From a virus, in IMG/VR virus record IMGVR_UViG_3300032308_001587, positions 1 to 24,325 of that record: a stretch of 24,325 nucleotides of DNA, one strand, 5' to 3'. The notes beneath the pieces are model-generated. The model was not told the DNA's origin and did not search any database. It worked only from the letters and a program-made list of their open reading frames with translations. The position numbers and the translations under genes are program-made. Of this stretch, positions 4,907 to 14,586 are shown piece by piece; the first letter of the stretch is position 1, and each line of letters starts with the position of its first letter.

Positions 4907-5626
4907 ATGTCAACTAGCATGGATTTTCCAGGGAAGTCTAAAAAATATTCAGACAATGTAAACAACTCTTATCAACTTGAGCAATCAGTTTCTTTTATAG
5001 CTGTACCTGGACCACAAGGAGAACAGGGCCCAAAGGGTGATAAAGGCGATTCTGGACCAGAAGGTAAACAAGGACCACAGGGAGAGCCTGGAAAGCCTGG
5101 TAAAGATGGAAAAAACGGTAGAGATGGAATAGCAGGAGAAAGCAGCTTGTCTCCATCAGGTCAAAGAACTGGTTGGGCTCTTTATACAAATAAAGATCAA
5201 AAAGATATTACTCTTGGTGCAACAAAAGGAAATGACGGCTGGGTTAGCTTTAGCTTTGACTGTAGGGGCAAAAACAATGAACTTTATTTACCCGAAGATA
5301 ACGTTTCGTTATATAATTCACAATCACAAAAATTAAACCTTAAAGCACTAAAGGTTGGATCAATTGTAACAGTACGTTATGATATTATTCTAACTACCTT
5401 TACCAACAACACTGAGGTTTGGTTTAGAACCTATATACCAGAGTCTGATTTTTGGCCTACTACCTTTGCTGGAAACCTAAAATATCAGTTCTCATACGAC
5501 ATGTCACTAGAGCACACCTTTTTTATAGAAAATGACATGGTTAGAAACTATGGTGGGTTGCCACAAATATTGACAGATAATGATGCTTCAATGGTTGCCA
5601 AATCCATTTATATATCTGTTAGATAA
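4907..5626 (+). CDS. collagen-like tail fibre protein
   Basis: 239 residues. Residues 35-79 are 15 Gly-X-Y triplets without a break (from GPQGEQGPKGDKGDSG to GRDGIAGES), which would form a collagen triple helix. Two triplets, GEP and GKP, put Pro in the Y position, the classic target of prolyl-4-hydroxylase. The C-terminal 155 residues are beta-rich with aromatic residues and probably form a trimeric receptor-binding or trimerisation domain. Collagen-like segments are common in phage fibres. Start: ATG 4907, with an in-frame ATG at 4919 as alternative; neither has a strong ribosome site, so coupling to the 28-residue gene is likely. A row of dioxygenases begins 1.2 kb downstream. Confidence 0.75.
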   Translation: MSTSMDFPGKSKKYSDNVNNSYQLEQSVSFIAVPGPQGEQGPKGDKGDSGPEGKQGPQGEPGKPGKDGKNGRDGIAGESSLSPSGQRTGWALYTNKDQKDITLGATKGNDGWVSFSFDCRGKNNELYLPEDNVSLYNSQSQKLNLKALKVGSIVTVRYDIILTTFTNNTEVWFRTYIPESDFWPTTFAGNLKYQFSYDMSLEHTFFIENDMVRNYGGLPQILTDNDASMVAKSIYISVR

Positions 5627-5666: not shown

Positions 5667-6662
5667 ATGAGCCCAAAAAATACTGGTACAACAGATTCTT
5701 CAAAAAAGTCCGTTCCAAACGCACCAGTAATTGGAGCAGTTACAGTACAAGGATCTGGACGCTTGTTTACAGCAGGTGGACAAGTTTCTGTAGCTTTTAC
5801 AGCTCCTTCTTATGATGGCAAAATGCCAATTATTGACTACACAGTTACATCCAATACTGGTAGTTTTACAGCAACAGGTGCAAGCTCACCAATAGTTGTT
5901 ACAGGAATGTCAACTTCTGGAACTCCAGCAAATTATACTTTTACCGTTACTGCAAGAAACGCAGTTGGATCTTCAGCAGCATCTGCAGCATCTTCAGCAG
6001 TTGTTCCAACATCTAGACCAGCTCAAGTAACAATTGGAACAGCATCAGTTAATGGAACAACTGGAATTGTAAGTATTCCATTTACAAACCTTACATCTGC
6101 ACAAATTGGAAACTCAGCATTAACTACTCCAAACTACACAGTGACTTCTACTTCTGGAAAAACAGCAACTGGCTCAGGTACTCCACTTAGTATTACAGAA
6201 ACAACAGCAGGAACATATACATATACAGTTATTGCAACAAATGCAAACGGTAATTCTCCAGCATCTAATGCATCTAACCAAGTTGTTGTTACACTAGGGC
6301 CGTTCTTCCCACCATTCTTTCCGTTCTTTCCTTTCTTCCCTCCATTCTTCCCACCGTTCTTCCCACCGTTCTTCCCATTCTTCCCACCGTTCTTCCCACC
6401 GTTCTTCCCATTCTTCCCATTCTTCCCGTTCTTCCCACCGTTCTTCCCATTCTTCCCGTTCTTCCCATTCTTTCCTCCATTCTTCCCATTCTTCCCGTTC
6501 TTCCCATTCTTCCCACCGTTCTTCCCGTACTTCCCATTCTTCCCGTTCTTCCCACCGTTCTTTCCGTACTTCCCAGCCTTCCAGCCAATTCCACCGTTCT
6601 TCCCTGGATTTGGACCAACAGCACCGTTCTTCCCATACTTCACACTACCAGGTGTAGTATAA
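5667..6662 (+). CDS. Fn3-like fibre protein with an FFP-repeat tail
   Basis: 331 residues in three parts. Residues about 18-113 and 117-209 are two fibronectin-III-like domains (for example ANYTFTVTARNAVGSS and GTYTYTVIATNANGNSP, the usual F/G-strand ends). Residues 211 to about 310 are almost only Phe and Pro, in units FFP and FFPP with a few Tyr variants, then a short tail (PTAPFFPYFTLPGVV). Fn3 domains in phages are found on capsid, tail and fibre surfaces, where they bind cell-surface sugars. The Phe-Pro tail is very hydrophobic and, if exposed, might bind membranes or lipids or bundle with itself. The opposite strand is also open over the repeat (Gly-Lys-Asn-Gly), but the Fn3 domains show which strand is coding. 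A terminator follows. Confidence 0.75.
   Translation: MSPKNTGTTDSSKKSVPNAPVIGAVTVQGSGRLFTAGGQVSVAFTAPSYDGKMPIIDYTVTSNTGSFTATGASSPIVVTGMSTSGTPANYTFTVTARNAVGSSAASAASSAVVPTSRPAQVTIGTASVNGTTGIVSIPFTNLTSAQIGNSALTTPNYTVTSTSGKTATGSGTPLSITETTAGTYTYTVIATNANGNSPASNASNQVVVTLGPFFPPFFPFFPFFPPFFPPFFPPFFPFFPPFFPPFFPFFPFFPFFPPFFPFFPFFPFFPPFFPFFPFFPFFPPFFPYFPFFPFFPPFFPYFPAFQPIPPFFPGFGPTAPFFPYFTLPGVV
6297..6639 (+). repeat. polypyrimidine FFP/FFPP codon repeat
   Basis: About 340 bp made of 9- and 12-bp units (TTC TTC CCN and TTC TTC CCN CCN), strongly biased to C and T on the plus strand. Units differ mostly at third positions, which suggests repeat expansion followed by drift or selection at the protein level. 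Such tracts are prone to slippage, so copy number may vary among phages. Confidence 0.8.
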
Positions 6663-6683
6663 AATAAAAAAGAAGTAATACAA

Positions 6684-6715
6684 TTGGCCAACATTGTTTG
6701 GCCTTTTGTGTTTTT
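6684..6715 (+). terminator. terminator after the fibre genes
   Basis: GGCCAA-CATTGT-TTGGCC (6686-6703) forms a hairpin followed by TTTTGTGTTTTT. It lies 24 bp after the FFP gene and separates the fibre genes from the dioxygenase operon. Confidence 0.7.
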
Positions 6716-6736
6716 ATGAGTGCTAGATCTTATGTG

Positions 6737-6753
6737 TTGCAAAAGGTTTGCAA
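6737..6753. promoter_or_regulatory. 17-bp palindrome upstream of the dioxygenase operon
   Basis: TTGCAAA-AGG-TTTGCAA is a perfect inverted repeat centred at 6745, about 59 bp before the predicted transcription start. The position suits an activator site. Confidence 0.4.
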
Positions 6754-6768
6754 TAATGTTTAAATTGC

Positions 6769-6797
6769 TTTACAAAAAGTCAAAGATAGTGTATAAT
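6769..6797 (+). promoter_or_regulatory. promoter of the dioxygenase operon
   Basis: TTTACA (6769-6774), exactly 17 bp, TATAAT (6792-6797): the closest match to a housekeeping sigma consensus in the window. The predicted start near 6804 gives a short leader with AAAAAGGGGA before the ATG at 6818, so this gene is leadered, unlike many others here. Confidence 0.7.
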
Positions 6798-6817: not shown

Positions 6818-7534
6818 ATGGAAATTTATGATGAAAATGAAAACCCATGGTTTACAAAAGATAGATCAGAAACAATAACAACAAAGGTTGATAGATCTAT
6901 ACCTGAGCACAACATTACAGTAGAAAACCCAGGACTTGGCTTAAACATATATAGAAATGTGTTTTCCGCAGAAGACTCTAAAAGATATATAGAAACCCTT
7001 GAATCTAATCTTTCAACTGGAAAAAAATATAAATGGTCTGAAGCAACAGTTACAAACTCTGCAACACCAATCAAAAGAGCAAGAGACTGTGTAGATTTTA
7101 AGTATAAGCAAGAAAACTTAGGTCCTAGAGATCCATTTAATTCTGAGCTAATTGATTTACATCAAGAAATATATGAGAAGTTAAAACTTTGTATAGATGA
7201 CTATGCAAGGTATTGGGGAATTAATGTTATTTATTACGAAGCATTTAACTTTGTAAAGTATGAAGGAGAAGGAAAGCACTTTAATATTCATGCTGACCAT
7301 GGACCAGCATATAACGCTACAGTGTCTGCAGTTATTTATATCAATGATGATTACGAAGGCGGAGAGATTCAGTTTCCAAGATTAGATGGATATACACTTA
7401 CCCCAAAGGTAGGAGACATTGCAGTGTTCCCATCAAACTATATCTATGAGCATGCATCTCTGCCAATGAAGAGCGGTACAAAGTATTGCGTAGTAGTCAT
7501 GACAGATATAAATGAGCTAGGCCATAAGCAATGA
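6818..7534 (+). CDS. 2OG-Fe(II) dioxygenase (P4H-type), copy 1
   Basis: 238 residues. Enzymes of this family use Fe(II), O2 and 2-oxoglutarate to hydroxylate a substrate. The iron ligands are H158-A-D160 (in HADHG) and H212 (YEHAS); K222, ten residues after the last His, should bind 2-oxoglutarate where most relatives have Arg. INDDYEGGE (175-183) is the typical strand-turn of prolyl-4-hydroxylase-like domains. The closest relative in the window is the gene at 8316 (shared RDCVDFK, EAFNF-x-KY, FPSNY-x-Y-x-H, SGTKY). AAGGGGA before the ATG supports the start. It overlaps the next gene by 4 nt (ATGA). The substrate cannot be read from the sequence. Confidence 0.85.
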   Translation: MEIYDENENPWFTKDRSETITTKVDRSIPEHNITVENPGLGLNIYRNVFSAEDSKRYIETLESNLSTGKKYKWSEATVTNSATPIKRARDCVDFKYKQENLGPRDPFNSELIDLHQEIYEKLKLCIDDYARYWGINVIYYEAFNFVKYEGEGKHFNIHADHGPAYNATVSAVIYINDDYEGGEIQFPRLDGYTLTPKVGDIAVFPSNYIYEHASLPMKSGTKYCVVVMTDINELGHKQ

Positions 7535-8307
7535 CATTAAAGGAAAATATTGCAAAGTTTACAGCCTATAGACCATGGGTTACAAAAGACAGCCCATCTG
7601 TTCCGTCACCAACACAAGCAGTAATTCCACAATGGTACAAGGATGCAGATAGGTTTGCTAAAGATCCCATTGGTGAATACTATAAAGCTACACCCCAGAT
7701 TTGTCCATTTCCTAAAGAAGGAACAAAAGATGATTATGGAAAGATTCCTACATGGAAGGCATGTCCAGCAATCATGGATGCATTTACAACAGGGTATGTA
7801 TTAAAGACTCCTTGTGATATTACTTTTTTTAAAACAGCAGATGGTTCTATAGATGTAAAAATAGAAGATGCACGACATCAAGATTTTTGTAGTAAAAGAA
7901 TGGCAATGCCACAATTTGAGCAACCAAAAGGATTCTACAGAGAACATTTTGCCTGGTATCCAGATTGGGGTCTAGAGTTGCCAGAAGGATACAGCGCATT
8001 ATTCATGACCCCAATGAATCGTTTTGATTTGCCATTTATAAATACTACTGGAGTTGTTGACAATGATAGTGTTCATCTTCTAGGTACCTTTCCATTTTTT
8101 ATTACAGAAGGTTGGGAAGGAACGCTTCCAGCAGGAACGCCATATGTACAGATACTGCCTTTTAAAAGAGAAGATTGGGGCCATGAAATCAAATTTATAG
8201 GCTCAACAGAAATTTATGCTAAAATGATGAGTAATGCAAGTTTTTATAGACAGCCAGATGGTGGAGTTTATAAAAATAAAGTTTGGACAAGAAGAGAATA
8301 TAAATAG
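7531..8307 (+). CDS. DUF6065-like protein, copy 1
   Basis: 258 residues, no enzyme motif that I can name. Blocks: GYVLKTPCDITFF (88-100), WGLELPEGYSALFMTPMNRF (146-165) and GWEGTLPAGTPYVQILPFKR (194-213). The same order of blocks, with weaker identity, is found in the gene at 8993 (GWNLSASQDIEFIWNG; TGL...FTINPVNYF; KAGTPLATIVP), so the two are paralogues. The AGTP-x-x-x-I-x-P block and strand-rich profile suggest a jelly-roll or cupin-like fold. The DUF6065 name is from memory of the family pattern. The 4-nt overlap with the oxygenase implies coupled, near-equal synthesis, so the pair may act as a complex or on one substrate. Confidence 0.55.
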   Translation: MTLKENIAKFTAYRPWVTKDSPSVPSPTQAVIPQWYKDADRFAKDPIGEYYKATPQICPFPKEGTKDDYGKIPTWKACPAIMDAFTTGYVLKTPCDITFFKTADGSIDVKIEDARHQDFCSKRMAMPQFEQPKGFYREHFAWYPDWGLELPEGYSALFMTPMNRFDLPFINTTGVVDNDSVHLLGTFPFFITEGWEGTLPAGTPYVQILPFKREDWGHEIKFIGSTEIYAKMMSNASFYRQPDGGVYKNKVWTRREYK

Positions 8308-8315
8308 GGGGAACT

Positions 8316-8993
8316 ATGCAAACATGGACAGAAAAAATAAACCTTGGTAATGGAATTGTGTGTTACAGGGACGTAATAAAAAAAGACTTCAATGTAATAG
8401 AAAGACTTGAAGAAAATTTGGGTTCGGTTGCTGGATATGGAGAGTTGTCTCCAGAGGGCAACAGATACCATTGGATGCCAGCATACGTTGGGTACCAACA
8501 ACTTATTCCAGACTACAGAGACTGTGTTGATTTTAAATTTAAAAAAACAGATATAGAGCTAGATAAAAGTGAAACATCTTTAAAGCTACAATCTCTTTGG
8601 CAAGATGTATATGATTCTCAGTTCCAGGCAGTTGAAGATTACAGAAAAGATTACAATATTATGGATCTTAAATATTGGGAAGCATTCAACTTTATAAAGT
8701 ATGGTCCAGGACAGCACTTCATGGAGCATCATGATCATGGGTATTCTTATAATTGTACAGTCTCTCTTGTTGCATATATTAATGATGACTATGAAGGTGG
8801 AGAATTGTATTTTAGATTGCAAGATTTAAAGATTAAGCCAAAAGCTGGCGACCTATATATATTCCCATCAAACTATATGTATCCTCATCAAGCAATGCCA
8901 GTAGAGTCTGGAACAAAGTATTCTATTGTTACTATGTTGGATTATAATAAAAAGTTTCATACTCCAGAAATGTTTTCTCAGGATAATATGTAA
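8316..8993 (+). CDS. 2OG-Fe(II) dioxygenase (P4H-type), copy 2
   Basis: 225 residues. Iron ligands H138-H-D140 (in HHDHG) and H191 (YPHQA), with K201 as the likely 2-oxoglutarate ligand. It aligns closely with the oxygenase at 6818 over the whole catalytic domain, including the unusual Lys and an extra His after the Asp. It differs at the N-terminus, which is shorter by about 20 residues. ATAGGGGGA is the ribosome site; the gap to the previous gene is 8 nt. Its stop overlaps the start of the second DUF6065-like gene, repeating the arrangement of the pair before it. Confidence 0.85.
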   Translation: MQTWTEKINLGNGIVCYRDVIKKDFNVIERLEENLGSVAGYGELSPEGNRYHWMPAYVGYQQLIPDYRDCVDFKFKKTDIELDKSETSLKLQSLWQDVYDSQFQAVEDYRKDYNIMDLKYWEAFNFIKYGPGQHFMEHHDHGYSYNCTVSLVAYINDDYEGGELYFRLQDLKIKPKAGDLYIFPSNYMYPHQAMPVESGTKYSIVTMLDYNKKFHTPEMFSQDNM

Positions 8994-9721
8994 TGCTAAA
9001 CATATCTGTTGAAAGATTTCCAGACTCAAAAATTATTATATCTCCAATGTCAATAAAAAGAGATTGGATGGATGTTACTCCAGAAAAACATGCATACAGA
9101 TGTTTTCCAGTAACACAAGCTAATATGGTTGGGTGGAATCTATCAGCTAGTCAAGACATTGAATTTATTTGGAACGGTATAAATGATACTAGTTCAGAAA
9201 ATGTTAAAATAACCAAAGGTTCACAGTTCACCTATACTGGAAGAGGTCAATCAACTGTAAGTATACACACTGGCTTGACCTTTAGGTCAGAACAAAATGT
9301 CAGTATGTTTACAATTAATCCAGTCAATTATTTTAATGAAGATTTTGAAACAATGTCTTCTTTGATTAGCACATCTTGGCTAGATACTGCTTTTCCACTA
9401 GCAATTAAGGCAAGATCTGCCAATAAAAAAATTAACATAAAGGCAGGAACACCTCTTGCTACAATAGTTCCAATTTCTTTAACAGCAATGGATAATACAT
9501 CAATTCAAATATTTGACTACGAAGATATAGATCGTAGCAGAGAAAAAGCCCATAAGTCATACGGCGAGGCTGCACAAAAAATAAATCAGTCTGGTGAGTG
9601 GACTGATTGGTACAGGGATGCAGTTAACGAAAAAGGAGAAAGCAAGGGATCACATGAAACAAAGGTATTACGTCTTTCTGTAACAGATAATACATCAAAT
9701 AAAGGAAATGGTATAATCTAA
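8993..9721 (+). CDS. DUF6065-like protein, copy 2
   Basis: 242 residues, ATG 8993 overlapping the preceding stop. The N-terminal part, DWMDVTPEKHAYRCFPVTQ (24-42), ANMVGWNL and WNG, matches the pattern I associate with DUF6065 (W-M-D-x-T-P...A-Y-R-C-x-P...A-N...G-W). The second half has TGLTFRSEQN, FTINPVNYF and IKAGTPLATIVPI. The C-terminal 70 residues are charged and helical (DRSREKAHKSYGEAAQ). No known reaction. Paralogue of the 7531 gene and, like it, placed directly after a Lys-type oxygenase. Its last codons contain the TATAAT of the next gene. Confidence 0.6.
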   Translation: MLNISVERFPDSKIIISPMSIKRDWMDVTPEKHAYRCFPVTQANMVGWNLSASQDIEFIWNGINDTSSENVKITKGSQFTYTGRGQSTVSIHTGLTFRSEQNVSMFTINPVNYFNEDFETMSSLISTSWLDTAFPLAIKARSANKKINIKAGTPLATIVPISLTAMDNTSIQIFDYEDIDRSREKAHKSYGEAAQKINQSGEWTDWYRDAVNEKGESKGSHETKVLRLSVTDNTSNKGNGII

Positions 9722-9723
9722 CT
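9709..9723 (+). promoter_or_regulatory. internal leaderless promoter in the operon
   Basis: TGG-TATAAT (9709-9717) lies inside the last codons of the preceding gene and ends 6 nt before the ATG at 9724. It would let the distal five oxygenases be transcribed apart from the first four genes. Confidence 0.5.
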
Positions 9724-10398
9724 ATGGAAAAAGAAAATGCCTCTGTTGTAGTTAGAAAACCATCACTAACCCCATCTGGCTGGTTTGGCAGCGGTAAAGA
9801 AATGATTATTGAGTTAGAAAATTTTATGACTCAAGATGAAATGGACTTTTTAGAAAAAGCTGCAAAGTCTTTGACAATATGGGATGTAACACAAAGCCAT
9901 GTAAATGAAAATGGAACAGTGGTTTATGACTCAGACTATTGGAAAGATAGAGTTGCAACTCAGCCAACCTTAGATAAAAATGATCCAAACATATCACCAG
10001 TAATTGCTGGACTATTTCAAAGACTACAGCCTATAGTTGAAGAGTTTTATAAGGTAAAGGTTATTCCTACTGGAACAACTATTGTTAAATGGCTACCAGG
10101 ACAATTTCAAAAGCCACACGCAGACAAAGAATTGCATGAAGGACCAGACGCTGGGCTTCCAAATGATTTCCCAAACTATGATCTTTCAAGCCTTTTTTAT
10201 TTAAATGAAGACTATGAAGGCGGAGAATTGTACTTCCCAAATCAAGGCGTTCAGTTCAAACCTAAGAAGGGCGCTGCTTATTTTTTTCCAGGGGATATGA
10301 ATTATATTCACGGAGTAACAGAGATTAAGAGTGGTATTAGGTATACCTGCCCATTCTTTTGGGAAATTACAGAACACACTGGAGATAGGAAACCATAA
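9724..10398 (+). CDS. 2OG-Fe(II) dioxygenase (P4H-type), copy 3
   Basis: 224 residues. Iron ligands H132-A-D134 (KPHADK) and H196 (YIHGV); R206 (SGIRY) is the canonical 2-oxoglutarate ligand. LNEDYEGGELYFP (160-172) is the family core. The insert between D134 and the next strand (LHEGPDAGLPNDFPNYD) is longer than in copies 1 and 2 and would line the active-site entrance, so the substrate is probably different. No ribosome site; the start lies 6 nt after TATAAT. Confidence 0.85.
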   Translation: MEKENASVVVRKPSLTPSGWFGSGKEMIIELENFMTQDEMDFLEKAAKSLTIWDVTQSHVNENGTVVYDSDYWKDRVATQPTLDKNDPNISPVIAGLFQRLQPIVEEFYKVKVIPTGTTIVKWLPGQFQKPHADKELHEGPDAGLPNDFPNYDLSSLFYLNEDYEGGELYFPNQGVQFKPKKGAAYFFPGDMNYIHGVTEIKSGIRYTCPFFWEITEHTGDRKP

Positions 10399-10399
10399 A

Positions 10400-11293
10400 A
10401 TGAGCAAAGACTTTACTTTTAAAGAGATTTATCCAAATATTTTTGTATACAATAATGTTTTTGAAGATCCAGAAAAAATGTATAAGATTGCAAAAGATTC
10501 TGTAAACAATTACGATGATGCAATTTGGGACAGCTGGCAAGAATGGTATGACTTTGGTCATAAAATAGAAAACTTTGGATTATTTTTTGATAAAACAGCT
10601 ACAAGCCTTAAAATATTATCAGACATAACACCAACCACAAAAGTTCAAGAAGATCAAAGATATTTTATTACTGAGTTAGTTAAGGGTTTTCACCTAGTAA
10701 ATAACCACTATATAGAACGTCATAATTTTCCAGTACATAGAGAAAAAAATGTAACTGTTGAAGCTAATGGCGAAACTCAAGCAAAGTGGAACTGGACTGG
10801 ACCCTCTTTATGCAGATATTTTGTTGAGTCTGAACTTTCTAAGACAAATGAGGGAGAAGACAAGTTAGCCATGAGATATCATAGCGATTATATTAGAGAA
10901 GTAGTAAAAAGTCCAGGATATAAGTTTGCCTTAACCACAACAACATATCTAAATGATAATTATTTAAAAGGCGGAATTGATTTTGCTGTTGGAGACAAAC
11001 TAATTAACTATAAGCCAAAAGCTGGAGACTTTCTTGTTTTTCCTTCAGGCCACCCAGACTATTCTACTGAAGAAGGAGAAGTTTATTTGCATGCTGCAGA
11101 AAATTGTTCAGTAAATGAAAAATTTTTTACAAGAATGTATTGGACAGTATATGAAGATGCATCAGAGGAATGGAAAGAAAAAAGTCAGATTTTTGGTGAT
11201 AAATGGCCAGAAGAACTTCAACGACTTCAACATCAGTATAGGATAGACCATCCAGCAAGAAACTTCATAGAGGGGGCAACAAGAATCAAATGA
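10400..11293 (+). CDS. 2OG-Fe(II) dioxygenase (P4H-type), copy 4
   Basis: 297 residues, the largest of the set. Iron ligands H161-S-D163 (RYHSDY) and H231 (YLHAAENC); K241 (ten residues later) or R245 would bind 2-oxoglutarate. LNDNYLKGGIDF replaces the usual DDYEGGE. About 100 extra residues before the catalytic core, with a Trp-rich stretch (WDSWQEWYDF), suggest a distinct substrate domain. The frame is open to 10331, but the ATG at 10400, one base after the preceding stop and following TAGGAAA, gives the expected start MSKDFTFKEIYPN. It overlaps the next gene by 4 nt (ATGA). Confidence 0.8.
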   Translation: MSKDFTFKEIYPNIFVYNNVFEDPEKMYKIAKDSVNNYDDAIWDSWQEWYDFGHKIENFGLFFDKTATSLKILSDITPTTKVQEDQRYFITELVKGFHLVNNHYIERHNFPVHREKNVTVEANGETQAKWNWTGPSLCRYFVESELSKTNEGEDKLAMRYHSDYIREVVKSPGYKFALTTTTYLNDNYLKGGIDFAVGDKLINYKPKAGDFLVFPSGHPDYSTEEGEVYLHAAENCSVNEKFFTRMYWTVYEDASEEWKEKSQIFGDKWPEELQRLQHQYRIDHPARNFIEGATRIK

Positions 11294-12036
11294 ACCTTAA
11301 AAATAAAAATAGAATAACAAAAGACATTGTTGTTTTTGAAGATTTTTTAACTAGAGAAGATTGTGAAAAGATAGTTAAAGCGCTAGATGCTCAAGCAGAA
11401 AATGGAAAGATTTCTTGGATGCCTATATCTTTTTATGAGTCATATTCTTCTGTACTTCCACAAGATAATGATCAGGAAGTCATTGACGCTGGTCTTAAGC
11501 CAACAATTTTTTCAGACATTGAAAAAATGATGCCTGAAGCAATTGCGTCTATACATGATTTAGATCCAAAAATAATTTCAAAAATTGGATACCACACTCA
11601 AAAGTGGGAACCTGGAGCATATGCAAGAGTTCACTCTGACAATACAGATGAAAAAGGAAACTCTGGAGCATTTACAAGAAGTAGGTATGCAGGTTTTCTT
11701 TATCTAAATGATAACTTTGAAGGTGGTATTCTTAGATTTCCAAGTCAAAATTTAGAGATACAGCCAAAGGTTGGAATGCTTGCTGTATTTGACGGGGGAT
11801 TTAACAATATGCACGAAGTATCCCTCATTACAAGTGGAGTAAGATATACAATAGGCTCATTCTGGGACGATAGAGAAGAAGATGCATATCCACAAGAAGT
11901 AAGAGATGCATGGGCAGAAGAGATGAAAGCCACCAGAGCACAACAAGAAATTGAAAGAGCAGAATGGCAAGATCTACTAAAACAGGGCTGGAAGATTGAT
12001 GCTCATGGAAATAAATACAAAGCAGAGGATATATAA
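11290..12036 (+). CDS. 2OG-Fe(II) dioxygenase (P4H-type), copy 5
   Basis: 248 residues. Iron ligands H115-S-D117 (RVHSDN) and H175 (NMHEV); R185 (SGVRY) binds 2-oxoglutarate. The core strand LYLNDNFEGGILRFP (137-151) is clear. After residue 195 there is a charged helical tail (about 50 residues, rich in Glu, Lys and Trp) absent from the other copies, perhaps for contact with a partner. The start overlaps the previous stop by 4 nt, so translation is coupled. Confidence 0.85.
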   Translation: MNLKNKNRITKDIVVFEDFLTREDCEKIVKALDAQAENGKISWMPISFYESYSSVLPQDNDQEVIDAGLKPTIFSDIEKMMPEAIASIHDLDPKIISKIGYHTQKWEPGAYARVHSDNTDEKGNSGAFTRSRYAGFLYLNDNFEGGILRFPSQNLEIQPKVGMLAVFDGGFNNMHEVSLITSGVRYTIGSFWDDREEDAYPQEVRDAWAEEMKATRAQQEIERAEWQDLLKQGWKIDAHGNKYKAEDI

Positions 12037-12037
12037 A

Positions 12038-12700
12038 GTGACAGTATTTTTAAAAAAAGAATTTGAAGATGCTGGATATGATGTTGAAGTTTTTCATGAT
12101 CATGTTTTATTTATAAAAAACTTTTTAAAAGAAGAAGAGCTACAGACAATATTAAAAATAATTGAAACAACTAGTGAAGAAGATTGGTCAATAGAGTATA
12201 CAAAAAACCTTGCCAGATTCTGCATGGAAAAATTTGGAAGAGACGATGTAGAAAACCTGGTTGCAGAGGGTAAGTTTGAAATAACTAAAGGCTGGCAAGA
12301 TAAAAACTTAAATATTACACGTGAAAAAATAAGCAGCGCACTTCAAAGAAGACTTGGTGAATTAATGAAGATAGCAGATCCATCGCTAGAGCTTGGTGGA
12401 TTTGGAACTCTTCAAAGAATGCAAAAGGGTGTTGAGTTAAAGTCACATACAGATCAGCATACGGATCCATCTATTAGGTATGCTGCTATACTTTATATTA
12501 ATGATGACTATAAAGATGGAACTTTATTCTTTAAAAATAAAGAAAATTCAGATTTAAGGCCAAAGCCAGGAACACTGCTTATTTTTCCAGGTAACGAAGA
12601 ATACGAGCATGGAGTAAGGCCTGTAGGAGAAGGACCTATAAGATATGTTACTGTAGGTTTCATGAAGGTAACAGGCTTTTATGAAAACAATAAATACTAA
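12038..12700 (+). CDS. 2OG-Fe(II) dioxygenase (P4H-type), copy 6
   Basis: 220 residues from a GTG start. Iron ligands are H137-T-D139 or H141-T-D143 (the sequence SHTDQHTD holds two HxD motifs) and H191 (YEHGV); R202 (PIRY) binds 2-oxoglutarate. Core YINDDYKDGTLFF (153-165). The frame is open back to 11996 inside the previous gene, but GTG 12038 after GCAGAGGAT, one base past the previous stop, is the natural start. The doubled HxD is unusual; alignment would show which is used. Confidence 0.8.
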   Translation: MTVFLKKEFEDAGYDVEVFHDHVLFIKNFLKEEELQTILKIIETTSEEDWSIEYTKNLARFCMEKFGRDDVENLVAEGKFEITKGWQDKNLNITREKISSALQRRLGELMKIADPSLELGGFGTLQRMQKGVELKSHTDQHTDPSIRYAAILYINDDYKDGTLFFKNKENSDLRPKPGTLLIFPGNEEYEHGVRPVGEGPIRYVTVGFMKVTGFYENNKY

Positions 12701-12711
12701 GGAGATATAAG

Positions 12712-13341
12712 ATGGACAAAGAAATACTTGAGGAAAAAGTTTACTATTACACAAACGTAATAGAAGACCCTGCAAAGCTTGTTGAGGCAATTGAAAATGA
12801 CAACAAGGATGCTTGGGGAGAGTGGGCTGCTTGTAGTGGTCAGCACTATGTCTATGGCTCAGATAAGACTATTGCTTTGACTCCAGGCTTAGATGAAAAA
12901 AATAAGTATATCTACGAAACACTACAAAAAGCATTTGATGTTGTAGCAAGAGATTATGCTAAAGCCCAAGGAATTACAGAAGAGCCAAAGCTTTTCCCAC
13001 AGTATCCAATTAAAAAGTATCAACCAGGCACTTACATGGGAGCACACTTTGATCAGCAAGAGGGTGATGAAAGACTCAAGGTTTCTTTTGTTATGTACCT
13101 AAATGATGACTACGAAGGTGGAGAAATATCTTTCACTATTGCTTCACCAGATGGTGTTTTACAAAACGCAAGCCCAGCATCAGATTTTGCAGAAGCAGAA
13201 AAGAATAAAAACTATACTTTTGCTGTGAAACCAAAAGCAGGAAGCGTTATTGTCTTTCCTCCATCACCACCATATCATCATACTGCTCACTTGGTCAAGA
13301 GTGGTGAAAAGATTATGGTTCCACAACACTGGATTCATTAA
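12712..13341 (+). CDS. 2OG-Fe(II) dioxygenase (P4H-type), copy 7
   Basis: 209 residues. Iron ligands H112-F-D114 (GAHFDQQ) and probably H190 (in PPYHHTAH, where H189 and H193 are alternatives); K200 is ten residues after H190. Core LNDDYEGGEIS (130-140). An insert of about 25 residues, SPDGVLQNASPASDFAEAEK, lies between core strands. AAGGAGAT before the ATG is the best ribosome site in the operon. It ends one base before the dehydrogenase start. Confidence 0.8.
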   Translation: MDKEILEEKVYYYTNVIEDPAKLVEAIENDNKDAWGEWAACSGQHYVYGSDKTIALTPGLDEKNKYIYETLQKAFDVVARDYAKAQGITEEPKLFPQYPIKKYQPGTYMGAHFDQQEGDERLKVSFVMYLNDDYEGGEISFTIASPDGVLQNASPASDFAEAEKNKNYTFAVKPKAGSVIVFPPSPPYHHTAHLVKSGEKIMVPQHWIH

Positions 13342-13342
13342 T

Positions 13343-14011
13343 TTGAAAACAGCAATAGTCACGGGGGCTAGCAAGGGCGTTGGCTATGCTACAGTTAAGC
13401 TTTTGTCTGAAAATGGATATAAGGTAATTGCTGTATCAAGAAACCTGTCAAAGGTTAATGAGCTTATATCTGACAATGTTGAGACGTATCAGTTAGACAT
13501 CACAAGTGAGTCTCAGATTAAAGATTTTGCTGAAAAGTATAAGGACATAACCCTAGACCTGCTTGTAAACAATGCAGGTGGAGGATCAGGTCCTACCTTT
13601 ATTATTAATGAGACAATGGATAATTTTAGAAGGGCATATGATATAAATGTATCAGGCCCAATGTATCTTTCTCAACTTTTTGTTCCATGCATGAAAAGGT
13701 CTAAGTCACCAACCATTATATTTGTAAGCTCACTAGGAGGCAAGGTGCCATATCGTAGTGGAGGTAACTATATAAATGCTAAAAGAGGAATGATGGCCTT
13801 GGTTGATACAATGAGGCTAGAGTTCCCTGAGCATGGAATTAAAATAACTGAAATATGTCCAGGAACAATTGACACACAAGTAGAAAAGCGTGAGATAGCA
13901 TTAACCGCTGAAGATCTTGCAGAGTCTATTAGATGGGTTTCAGAGCTGCCAAGCCACTTCAATATTAATCATATTGAAATGAACCACATAAGCAGCAACA
14001 AATTTTCTTAG
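13343..14011 (+). CDS. short-chain dehydrogenase/reductase
   Basis: 222 residues, a complete classical SDR. It has the NAD(P)-binding TGASKGVG (7-14), NNAG (76-79), N102, catalytic S129 or S130, Y143-x-x-x-K147 and PGTIDT (173-178). SRN after the second strand (32-34) suggests NADPH. SDRs oxidise or reduce alcohol/ketone groups, so this one could act on a hydroxyl group made by the oxygenases, on a sugar, or on a host metabolite. The start is TTG at 13343, one base after the previous stop; the frame is open to 13250, but that extra part overlaps the oxygenase and is not SDR-like. It is the last gene of the operon and meets the lysozyme gene tail to tail with 2 bp between. Confidence 0.8.
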   Translation: MKTAIVTGASKGVGYATVKLLSENGYKVIAVSRNLSKVNELISDNVETYQLDITSESQIKDFAEKYKDITLDLLVNNAGGGSGPTFIINETMDNFRRAYDINVSGPMYLSQLFVPCMKRSKSPTIIFVSSLGGKVPYRSGGNYINAKRGMMALVDTMRLEFPEHGIKITEICPGTIDTQVEKREIALTAEDLAESIRWVSELPSHFNINHIEMNHISSNKFS

Positions 14012-14013
14012 AT

Positions 14014-14586
14014 TTAGGAAGGAAACCTAGTCATCCAAACCTTAGTCTTTGGAGTAATTCCATGCCAAGCAGACCAGTTCTTTCCACCATTACTCATATG
14101 ATATGCAACCTGTGCATTAATAACAGGGTTTAACAGCTCACTGTTAAAGTTTATGCCAAACTTATCTTGACGAACTTCTTTTAGCATTCCAAGCATATTG
14201 ATTTGGAATATACCGTAAGAGTTGTCACCAGTCTTAACGTTGCCATTAAAAGCTAGTGGACGGCCATTAGACTCTTTCTTAGCTACCGCCCAAGCCTTTA
14301 CTAGGCCCTGGCCACGAAAACCAACGGCATGCAAAAGCTCCTTTAGCTGACGATCTGTAAGACTAGCAGCATCTTGATATTTATGTAGAACATCTAAGTT
14401 CTTTTTTACTGCTACCAAACTTTTAGGCTTAGAAACCAAAAAAACCGCCTTGGCGGTTGAAGGTTCAGCTACAGCTGGTTTGCTTAGATTATTTTCAGTA
14501 CTTAAAGCATTAGCTGCATTACTTAGTGGTGCAATAAGCCCAAGTGCAGCAAGGATTCCAATCCAAATCTTTTTATCTCTTCTCAT
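14014..14586 (-). CDS. secreted lysozyme-like transglycosylase
   Basis: 190 residues. MRRDKKIWIGILAALGLIAP with ANA at 27 is a signal peptide, so the enzyme is exported. The domain at about 95-180 is a goose-type lysozyme/soluble lytic transglycosylase fold: AKKESNGRP with E105 as the likely acid catalyst, NSYGIFQIN (122-130), NAQVAYHMSNGG and W171/W174. It would cut the glycan chains of peptidoglycan. It might serve lysis, or host wall opening as a tail-associated enzyme. GGAGG before the ATG at 14586 is the ribosome site. It is a lone minus-strand gene between plus-strand operons. A perfect terminator-like hairpin lies in codons 43-50. Confidence 0.8.
   Translation of the reverse strand: MRRDKKIWIGILAALGLIAPLSNAANALSTENNLSKPAVAEPSTAKAVFLVSKPKSLVAVKKNLDVLHKYQDAASLTDRQLKELLHAVGFRGQGLVKAWAVAKKESNGRPLAFNGNVKTGDNSYGIFQINMLGMLKEVRQDKFGINFNSELLNPVINAQVAYHMSNGGKNWSAWHGITPKTKVWMTRFPS
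14438..14458 (-). terminator. terminator-like hairpin inside the lysozyme gene
   Basis: On the minus strand AACCGCC-AA-GGCGGTT (14458-14443) is a perfect palindrome run into TTTTTTT (14444-14438). It falls about 130 nt after the start codon and between the signal peptide and the catalytic domain. The codons used (ACC GCC AAG GCG) are GC-rich for this genome, which suggests selection for the structure. Confidence 0.6.

Follow-up and report, generated by a model that had tools for sequence, protein, structure and literature searches.

Viral prolyl 4-hydroxylases (P4Hs) and P4H genes of phages are already known, as is the prolyl hydroxylation of repetitive structural proteins. P4H genes are one of the most abundant kinds of auxiliary gene in viruses of the Baltic water column, and their viral use 'remains cryptic' (PMC9301287). 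The locus described here lies at positions 6818–13341 of a viral contig in IMG/VR (IMGVR_UViG_3300032308_001587), a fragment of 24,325 bases that was analysed at its full length and is referred to as the window. It is an ordered array of genes for seven P4H-like 2-oxoglutarate (2OG)-Fe(II) oxygenases (A–G) and two DUF6065-type partner proteins (d1 and d2). The gene directly upstream, overlooked in the preliminary description of this DNA, encodes a protein with Phe- and Pro-rich (P)PFF repeats (the FFP protein), and the array is probably dedicated to the hydroxylation of prolines in its repetitive stalk.

The PBCV-1 enzyme vCPH (PDB 5c5t) likewise has a small, virus-encoded P4H fold and ranks third in a Foldseek search with the model of A, but it is a single enzyme of a eukaryotic virus, for which no repeat-protein partner is known. 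What it does for the virus is not established (PMC7019647). The 2OG-Fe(II) oxygenases of T4-like cyanophages (phrog_61) belong to the same sequence family as the array proteins and adjoin tail-fibre and virion genes, with up to three per record among the matches listed for A. The array phages are siphovirus-like rather than T4-like, however, and the cyanophage P4H neighbourhoods examined contained no FFP protein or proline-rich repeats, DUF6065 pair or seven-member order. The plant and algal P4Hs of hydroxyproline-rich glycoproteins and extensins, such as Cr-P4H1 (PDB 3gze, with bound (Ser-Pro)5), share the fold (Z 16.0 for the model of A) and the principle of hydroxylating many prolines of a repetitive structural protein, whereas their substrate repeats are Ser/Pro and not Phe/Pro and their setting is the eukaryotic secretory pathway. 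We know of no P4H for which an FFP-type repeat is the substrate. Pseudomonas putida PPHD and the Bacillus anthracis P4H are prokaryotic P4H folds and the top matches of A by structure and by sequence, but they are single enzymes, and PPHD targets EF-Tu. Literature searches for FFP/PFF repeats, DUF6065 and phage prolyl hydroxylase gave nothing or nothing relevant, and none of the open-licence papers searched reports a substrate with FFP repeats, an array of seven members or a link to DUF6065.

Seven divergent oxygenases in a conserved order

The genes A, d1, B, d2, C, D, E, F and G follow one another almost without gaps on the + strand, with a short-chain dehydrogenase/reductase (SDR) gene next in line (Table 1). 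As the preliminary description had proposed, an HxD...H motif followed by a Lys or Arg is present in all seven oxygenases. The 2OG residue is Lys in A, B, D and G and Arg in C, E and F, placed at +10 from the last His, or +11 in F. Six of the seven (A, B, C, E, F and G; 36–58 bits) exceed the curated cut-off of 27 bits of the Pfam model PF13640. D, at 21 bits, falls short of it, and phrog_61 ('2OG-Fe(II) oxygenase') matches D as well. The catalytic residues had been judged intact, and their columns are indeed 100% conserved among the non-redundant orthologues of each family (60–81 sequences per family), apart from the Lys column of D (77 Lys, 4 Arg). Such invariance is consistent with working enzymes under selection and not with decaying copies.

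Pairwise identity across the seven is 20–42%, with the maximum between A and B. In a tree of 75 rows the copies cluster according to their place in the array, and the labels change 8 times against a minimum of 7. A and B form the only sister pair, the Arg group of C, E and F comes out together, and D, which is missing from some arrays, evolves fastest; some branches are long and the deep joins are unsure. The phylogeny indicates that the seven genes are old, distinct and non-redundant lineages, in agreement with the earlier view that they are not recent redundant copies.

Scans with d1 and G as queries gave 160 loci, and more arrays were added by a scan with the DNA of the FFP repeat. Most array loci open with the order A-d1-B-d2-C (178 of the arrays fetched, those of the repeat scan included), and a distant group has the order A-B-d2-d1-C instead. 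The number of P4H genes per array ranges from 5 to 10 with a mode of 7 (92 arrays with a visible end). The 'unbroken row of seven' first described therefore holds as regards gene order, which is conserved across hundreds of contigs, but d1 and d2 sit inside the row and the number of oxygenases varies. The homologues lie in ordered arrays and are not scattered singly, which upholds the idea of a dedicated, conserved pathway of non-redundant oxygenases. In close relatives an extra small P4H-like gene (L284:17272-17850), not present in the window, lies between the SDR gene and a lysozyme-like gene.

The AlphaFold2 model of A has a predicted local distance difference test (pLDDT) score of 80 and supports a double-stranded β-helix fold (Z 17). 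Prolyl hydroxylases make up 49 of its 50 top structural matches (Z 14.6–17.3), headed by PPHD (Z 17.3) and including HIF PHD2 (Z 17.0) and human P3H1 (Z 15.8), and its sequence-profile matches are BaP4H, LH3 and P3H1. B matches peptidyl hydroxylases by sequence, C gives mixed matches to peptidyl hydroxylases and to the PKHD-type PiuC, the sole match of G is PPHD (E 0.007), and no solved relative of F was found by sequence. The nearest relatives thus appear to be protein prolyl hydroxylases for A and B, mixed with PKHD for C, and hydroxylase activity is predicted. The PiuC match of C and the absence of a solved relative for F would also suit oxygenases with small molecules, sugars or free amino acids as substrates in the synthesis of a surface glycan or secondary metabolite, in which the SDR would catalyse a later step. 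An SDR gene ends many arrays, and a 114-kb relative (G001), whose d1 is 98% identical to that of the window, has glycosyltransferase and carbamoyltransferase genes. This is nevertheless improbable, since peptidyl hydroxylases are matched by the sequences of A, B and C, the sugar genes have a patchy distribution (PF11397 in 4 of 24 records, the GT25 family PF01755 in 1 of 24) and the constant partner of the array is a repeat protein.

The FFP-repeat gene as constant partner of the array

The Pfam fn3 match of the FFP protein in the window (23.7 bits) lies slightly below the cut-off, which is passed in the FFP proteins of relatives (L062, L196, L216 and L225). Its repeat of 111 residues contains 58 Phe and 44 Pro (F 54, P 42 and Y 2%) and no Lys, and the prolines occur in three settings, F-P-P, P-P-F and F-P-F, that are about equally common. 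With so little Tyr and no Lys, a substrate role of the FFP protein would leave proline as the sole target for which there is precedent. The coding repeat has a 39-nt tandem period with 7.6 copies. It is a coding minisatellite, and the length of the stalk evolves fast, because near-identical phages (L007, L009 and L010) differ by the gain or loss of whole 39-nt (13-residue) units. The tips of the FFP proteins vary and may be short, Cys-rich or Hint-like: 12 of 142 have Hint/intein-like domains, identified by motif (for example L087:623-1924, L196:2791-4125 and L178:3-782), and 43 of 142 have Cys-rich tails. Self-processing or cross-linking by the Hint-like or Cys-rich tips is possible. An antisense open reading frame (ORF) with GKNG repeats at 6134–6742 (− strand) was rejected as a gene. 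It is regarded as a mere shadow of the coding repeat, given that the Ig/Fn3 part is encoded in the + frame and that this frame is maintained in relatives.

The linkage of this gene to the array is two-way. In the forward direction, a same-strand FFP gene within 5 kb was counted for the 73 non-redundant arrays whose upstream sequence extends over 2.5 kb or more; it precedes 72 of them, and only 3 others occur elsewhere in 1.3 Mb. In the reverse direction, the DNA of the repeat alone was the query, and in-frame FFP genes with at least 3 kb downstream were kept, redundant loci included. Among the matches listed, P4H genes lie downstream of 74 of 76 such genes, and at 68 of the 76 there are at least three in the same direction. 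Of the two exceptions, L181 shares its contig with an array at another place (L173) and is an additional FFP gene there. When truncated FFP contigs were searched over their entire records, P4H genes turned up in all records longer than 20 kb bar one, in which the FFP gene stands at the contig end. As a control, cellular genomes were scanned for the same repeat DNA. The 80 loci obtained contain 17 in-frame FFP ORFs and a single P4H ORF in total, the latter at a locus without an in-frame FFP ORF.

Cellular FFP DNA was rejected as a related system, as it consists of low-complexity sequence that is unrelated and of a small number of short ORFs from Firmicutes, with no linked P4H. These short ORFs (63–94 residues, partly Gly/Phe-rich; L291:7094-7378, L293:6594-6785, L318:2643-2840 and L352:4794-5021) are perhaps spore or surface proteins.

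The pair of FFP gene and array is maintained in phages with portals 50–97% identical to that of G001, and the FFP gene is the constant partner of the array. The preliminary description had counted a dehydrogenase as part of the pathway, but the SDR gene is missing from some arrays. As with the extensins, a proline-rich repeat protein is linked to P4H genes; linked glycosyltransferases for extensin-type sugar addition are not a regular feature, at the frequencies given above. It could be that the array hydroxylates other proteins, such as several tail fibres or host EF-Tu, the FFP protein being one target of many or a mere structural-module neighbour. The top structural match of A does hydroxylate EF-Tu, the cyanophage P4Hs adjoin tail-fibre and virion genes without an FFP protein, and the array phages have tail-fibre-like genes nearby and further P4Hs elsewhere in their genomes. 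We consider this unlikely, as the FFP gene stays while the remaining neighbours turn over. The same applies with more force to the collagen-like gene, which lies two genes upstream of the array and, with its Gly-X-Y units, could be the main substrate as in collagen biosynthesis. It is found near just 15 of 78 arrays, so that linkage of the collagen P4H type is not seen, the gene was rejected as a conserved partner, and its role as main substrate is extremely improbable. It may still be an extra substrate in this clade.

Partner proteins and genomic setting

All 33 relatives of d2 match PF19541. d1 has no such match itself, 7 of 43 d1 relatives match with E values up to 5, and hhalign of d1 against d2 gives 94.7%. 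The model of d1 (pLDDT 88) resembles dUTPases (Z 8.8–10.3 over about 110–130 residues). As in the dUTPase/dCTP deaminase family, the invariant residues D177, D179 and Q207 sit where motifs 3 and 4 would be, and a motif-3-like VVDxD and a motif-4-like GTPxxQ are conserved (judged by eye). d1 differs in its lack of a Pfam dUTPase match, in being about double the length and in having PMNRF in place of the PRSG of motif 2, the latter judged by eye only. To our knowledge, no dUTPase-like fold has been assigned to DUF6065. Relatives of d1 in haloarchaeal tailed viruses (L407 and L408) adjoin genes for thymidylate synthase or a class II ribonucleotide reductase and lie near tail genes.

This fold raises the prospect of nucleotide or DNA hypermodification, in which d1 and d2 would act on nucleotides and the oxygenases on bases in the manner of Tet/JBP, and both a sub-threshold Tet_JBP match of C and the gene neighbours of the haloarchaeal relatives would be in keeping with it. 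However, the missing PRSG motif, the closeness of A to prolyl hydroxylases and the linkage to a structural-type protein make it highly improbable. Our guess is that d1 and d2 are re-used, probably oligomeric, binding or clamp proteins.

Table 1. Positions of the array genes and surrounding features in the window.
Feature	Position	Strand	Basis and remarks
Collagen-like Gly-X-Y protein	4907–5626	+	15 Gly-X-Y units; only in close relatives; possible extra substrate
FFP protein, candidate substrate: immunoglobulin/fibronectin type III (Ig/Fn3)-like N-terminal part, C-terminal (P)PFF repeats	5667–6662	+	Pfam fn3; linkage
FFP-repeat region, residues 213–323	6303–6635	+	Composition; tandem period
Terminator-like stem-loop with T-run, downstream of the FFP gene and ahead of A	6686–6703	+	2 found, 0.2 expected
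Promoter-like site TTTACA-17-TATAAT ahead of A	6769–6797	+	Only a match to the consensus (11/12); 1 site against 1.4 in shuffled sequence
A, P4H-like oxygenase, HAD...H...K	6818–7534	+	PF13640 44 bits; orthologue conservation; model near protein prolyl hydroxylases
d1, DUF6065-related partner, dUTPase-like predicted fold	7531–8307	+	phrog_7084; model
B, P4H-like oxygenase, sister of A, HHD...H...K	8316–8993	+	PF13640 58 bits; conservation; tree
d2, DUF6065 protein	8993–9721	+	PF19541 108.7 bits; remote homologue of d1
C, P4H-like oxygenase, HAD...H...R	9724–10398	+	PF13640 39 bits; conservation
D, divergent P4H-like oxygenase, HSD...H...K	10400–11293	+	PF13640 21 bits, under cut-off
E, P4H-like oxygenase, HSD...H...R	11290–12036	+	PF13640 36 bits; conservation
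F, P4H-like oxygenase, HTD...H...R (+11)	12038–12700	+	PF13640 50 bits; GTG start inferred from orthologue lengths
G, P4H-like oxygenase, HFD...H...K	12712–13341	+	PF13640 44 bits; conservation
SDR oxidoreductase (adh_short, 147 bits)	13343–14011	+	Often last member, not always; TTG start inferred from relatives
Lysozyme-like SLT_3 gene	14014–14586	−	Directly after array

The neighbours other than the FFP gene turn over; tail-fibre-like genes occur near arrays, and the SLT lysozyme gene is near 15 of 46. G001 carries genes of the PF11397 GlcNAc-transferase family and of GT25 (L286:12641-13690 and L286:18568-19998) and a carbamoyltransferase that is of NodU/TobZ type by its Pfam domains (L286:14815-16239). 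PF11397 is the family of the Skp1 hydroxyproline GlcNAc-transferase. At its frequency, a hydroxyproline glycosyltransferase was rejected as a constant array member.

The portal and DnaE polymerase of G001 are closest to those of Streptomyces phages (47% and 55%), and a gene of tape-measure size is present. The array phages appear to be siphovirus-like, with genomes of about 115 kb and related to Streptomyces phages. They are not T4-like, given that this close relative has its best polymerase and portal matches in Streptomyces siphoviruses. The related records with a portal match carry either an array or multiple P4H genes. A near-identity search of cultured phages gave no match, d2 likewise gave none, and the array is absent from every cultured phage record searched. 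P4H matches in these records come mainly from cyanophages, at up to 3 places per record among the matches listed. The isolated Nanopelagicales phages E7 and F5 have 39-kb genomes and collagen-like genes (PMC10202952); phages of this type were not found among the P4H matches listed.

A proposed hydroxylation system for the FFP stalk

We favour the view that the array serves solely to modify, after translation, the stalk of the FFP protein, a virion-type surface protein. Several peptidyl-prolyl hydroxylases, seven here and 5–10 in relatives, would hydroxylate the stalk prolines while the phage structural proteins are being synthesized, assisted by the two DUF6065-type partners. With Phe making up about 54% of it, the stalk should be insoluble, and many hydroxyprolines would render it wettable and stiff, turning the extremely hydrophobic (P)PFF repeat into a soluble, hydroxyproline-rich spike or adhesive stalk. 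Its principle would be that of collagen or the plant extensins, with a repeat that is new. The FFP protein, with its Ig/Fn3 base, stalk and variable tip, would finally be displayed on the virion. The paralogues may each read one proline setting or may work in order; the preliminary description had spoken of different substrates or successive steps, and separate site preferences on a single repeat polymer fit as well as the latter. More tentatively, the FFP stalk may represent an undescribed phage biopolymer with site-specific proline hydroxylation, each enzyme serving one context and the dUTPase-fold proteins d1 and d2 acting as clamps or chaperones.

Several points weigh against a dedicated system for the stalk. 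There is no direct sign of hydroxyproline in the FFP protein, of its binding or of its location in the virion, and in PBCV-1, which has the best-studied viral P4H, hydroxyproline was not found in virions (PMC7019647). Seven enzymes seem to exceed the apparent chemical need of one simple repeat. The array is apparently not transcriptionally fused to the FFP gene, because it has its own promoter- and terminator-like signals. The loops of the A model that carry the metal residues (157–165 and 208–212) have pLDDT values below 50, so that the iron site rests on conservation. Finally, the linkage counts of the reverse scan come from a set that is redundant and drawn from the matches listed.

The array phages are freshwater phages in which the block of FFP gene and array is conserved. 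In this group a whole set of hydroxylases is genetically inseparable from one specific candidate substrate, and the question can be tested with peptides. If the proposal is true, these phages make a hydroxyproline-rich structural protein of their own, which would be a new material and would give a new view of the surface chemistry of lake virions.

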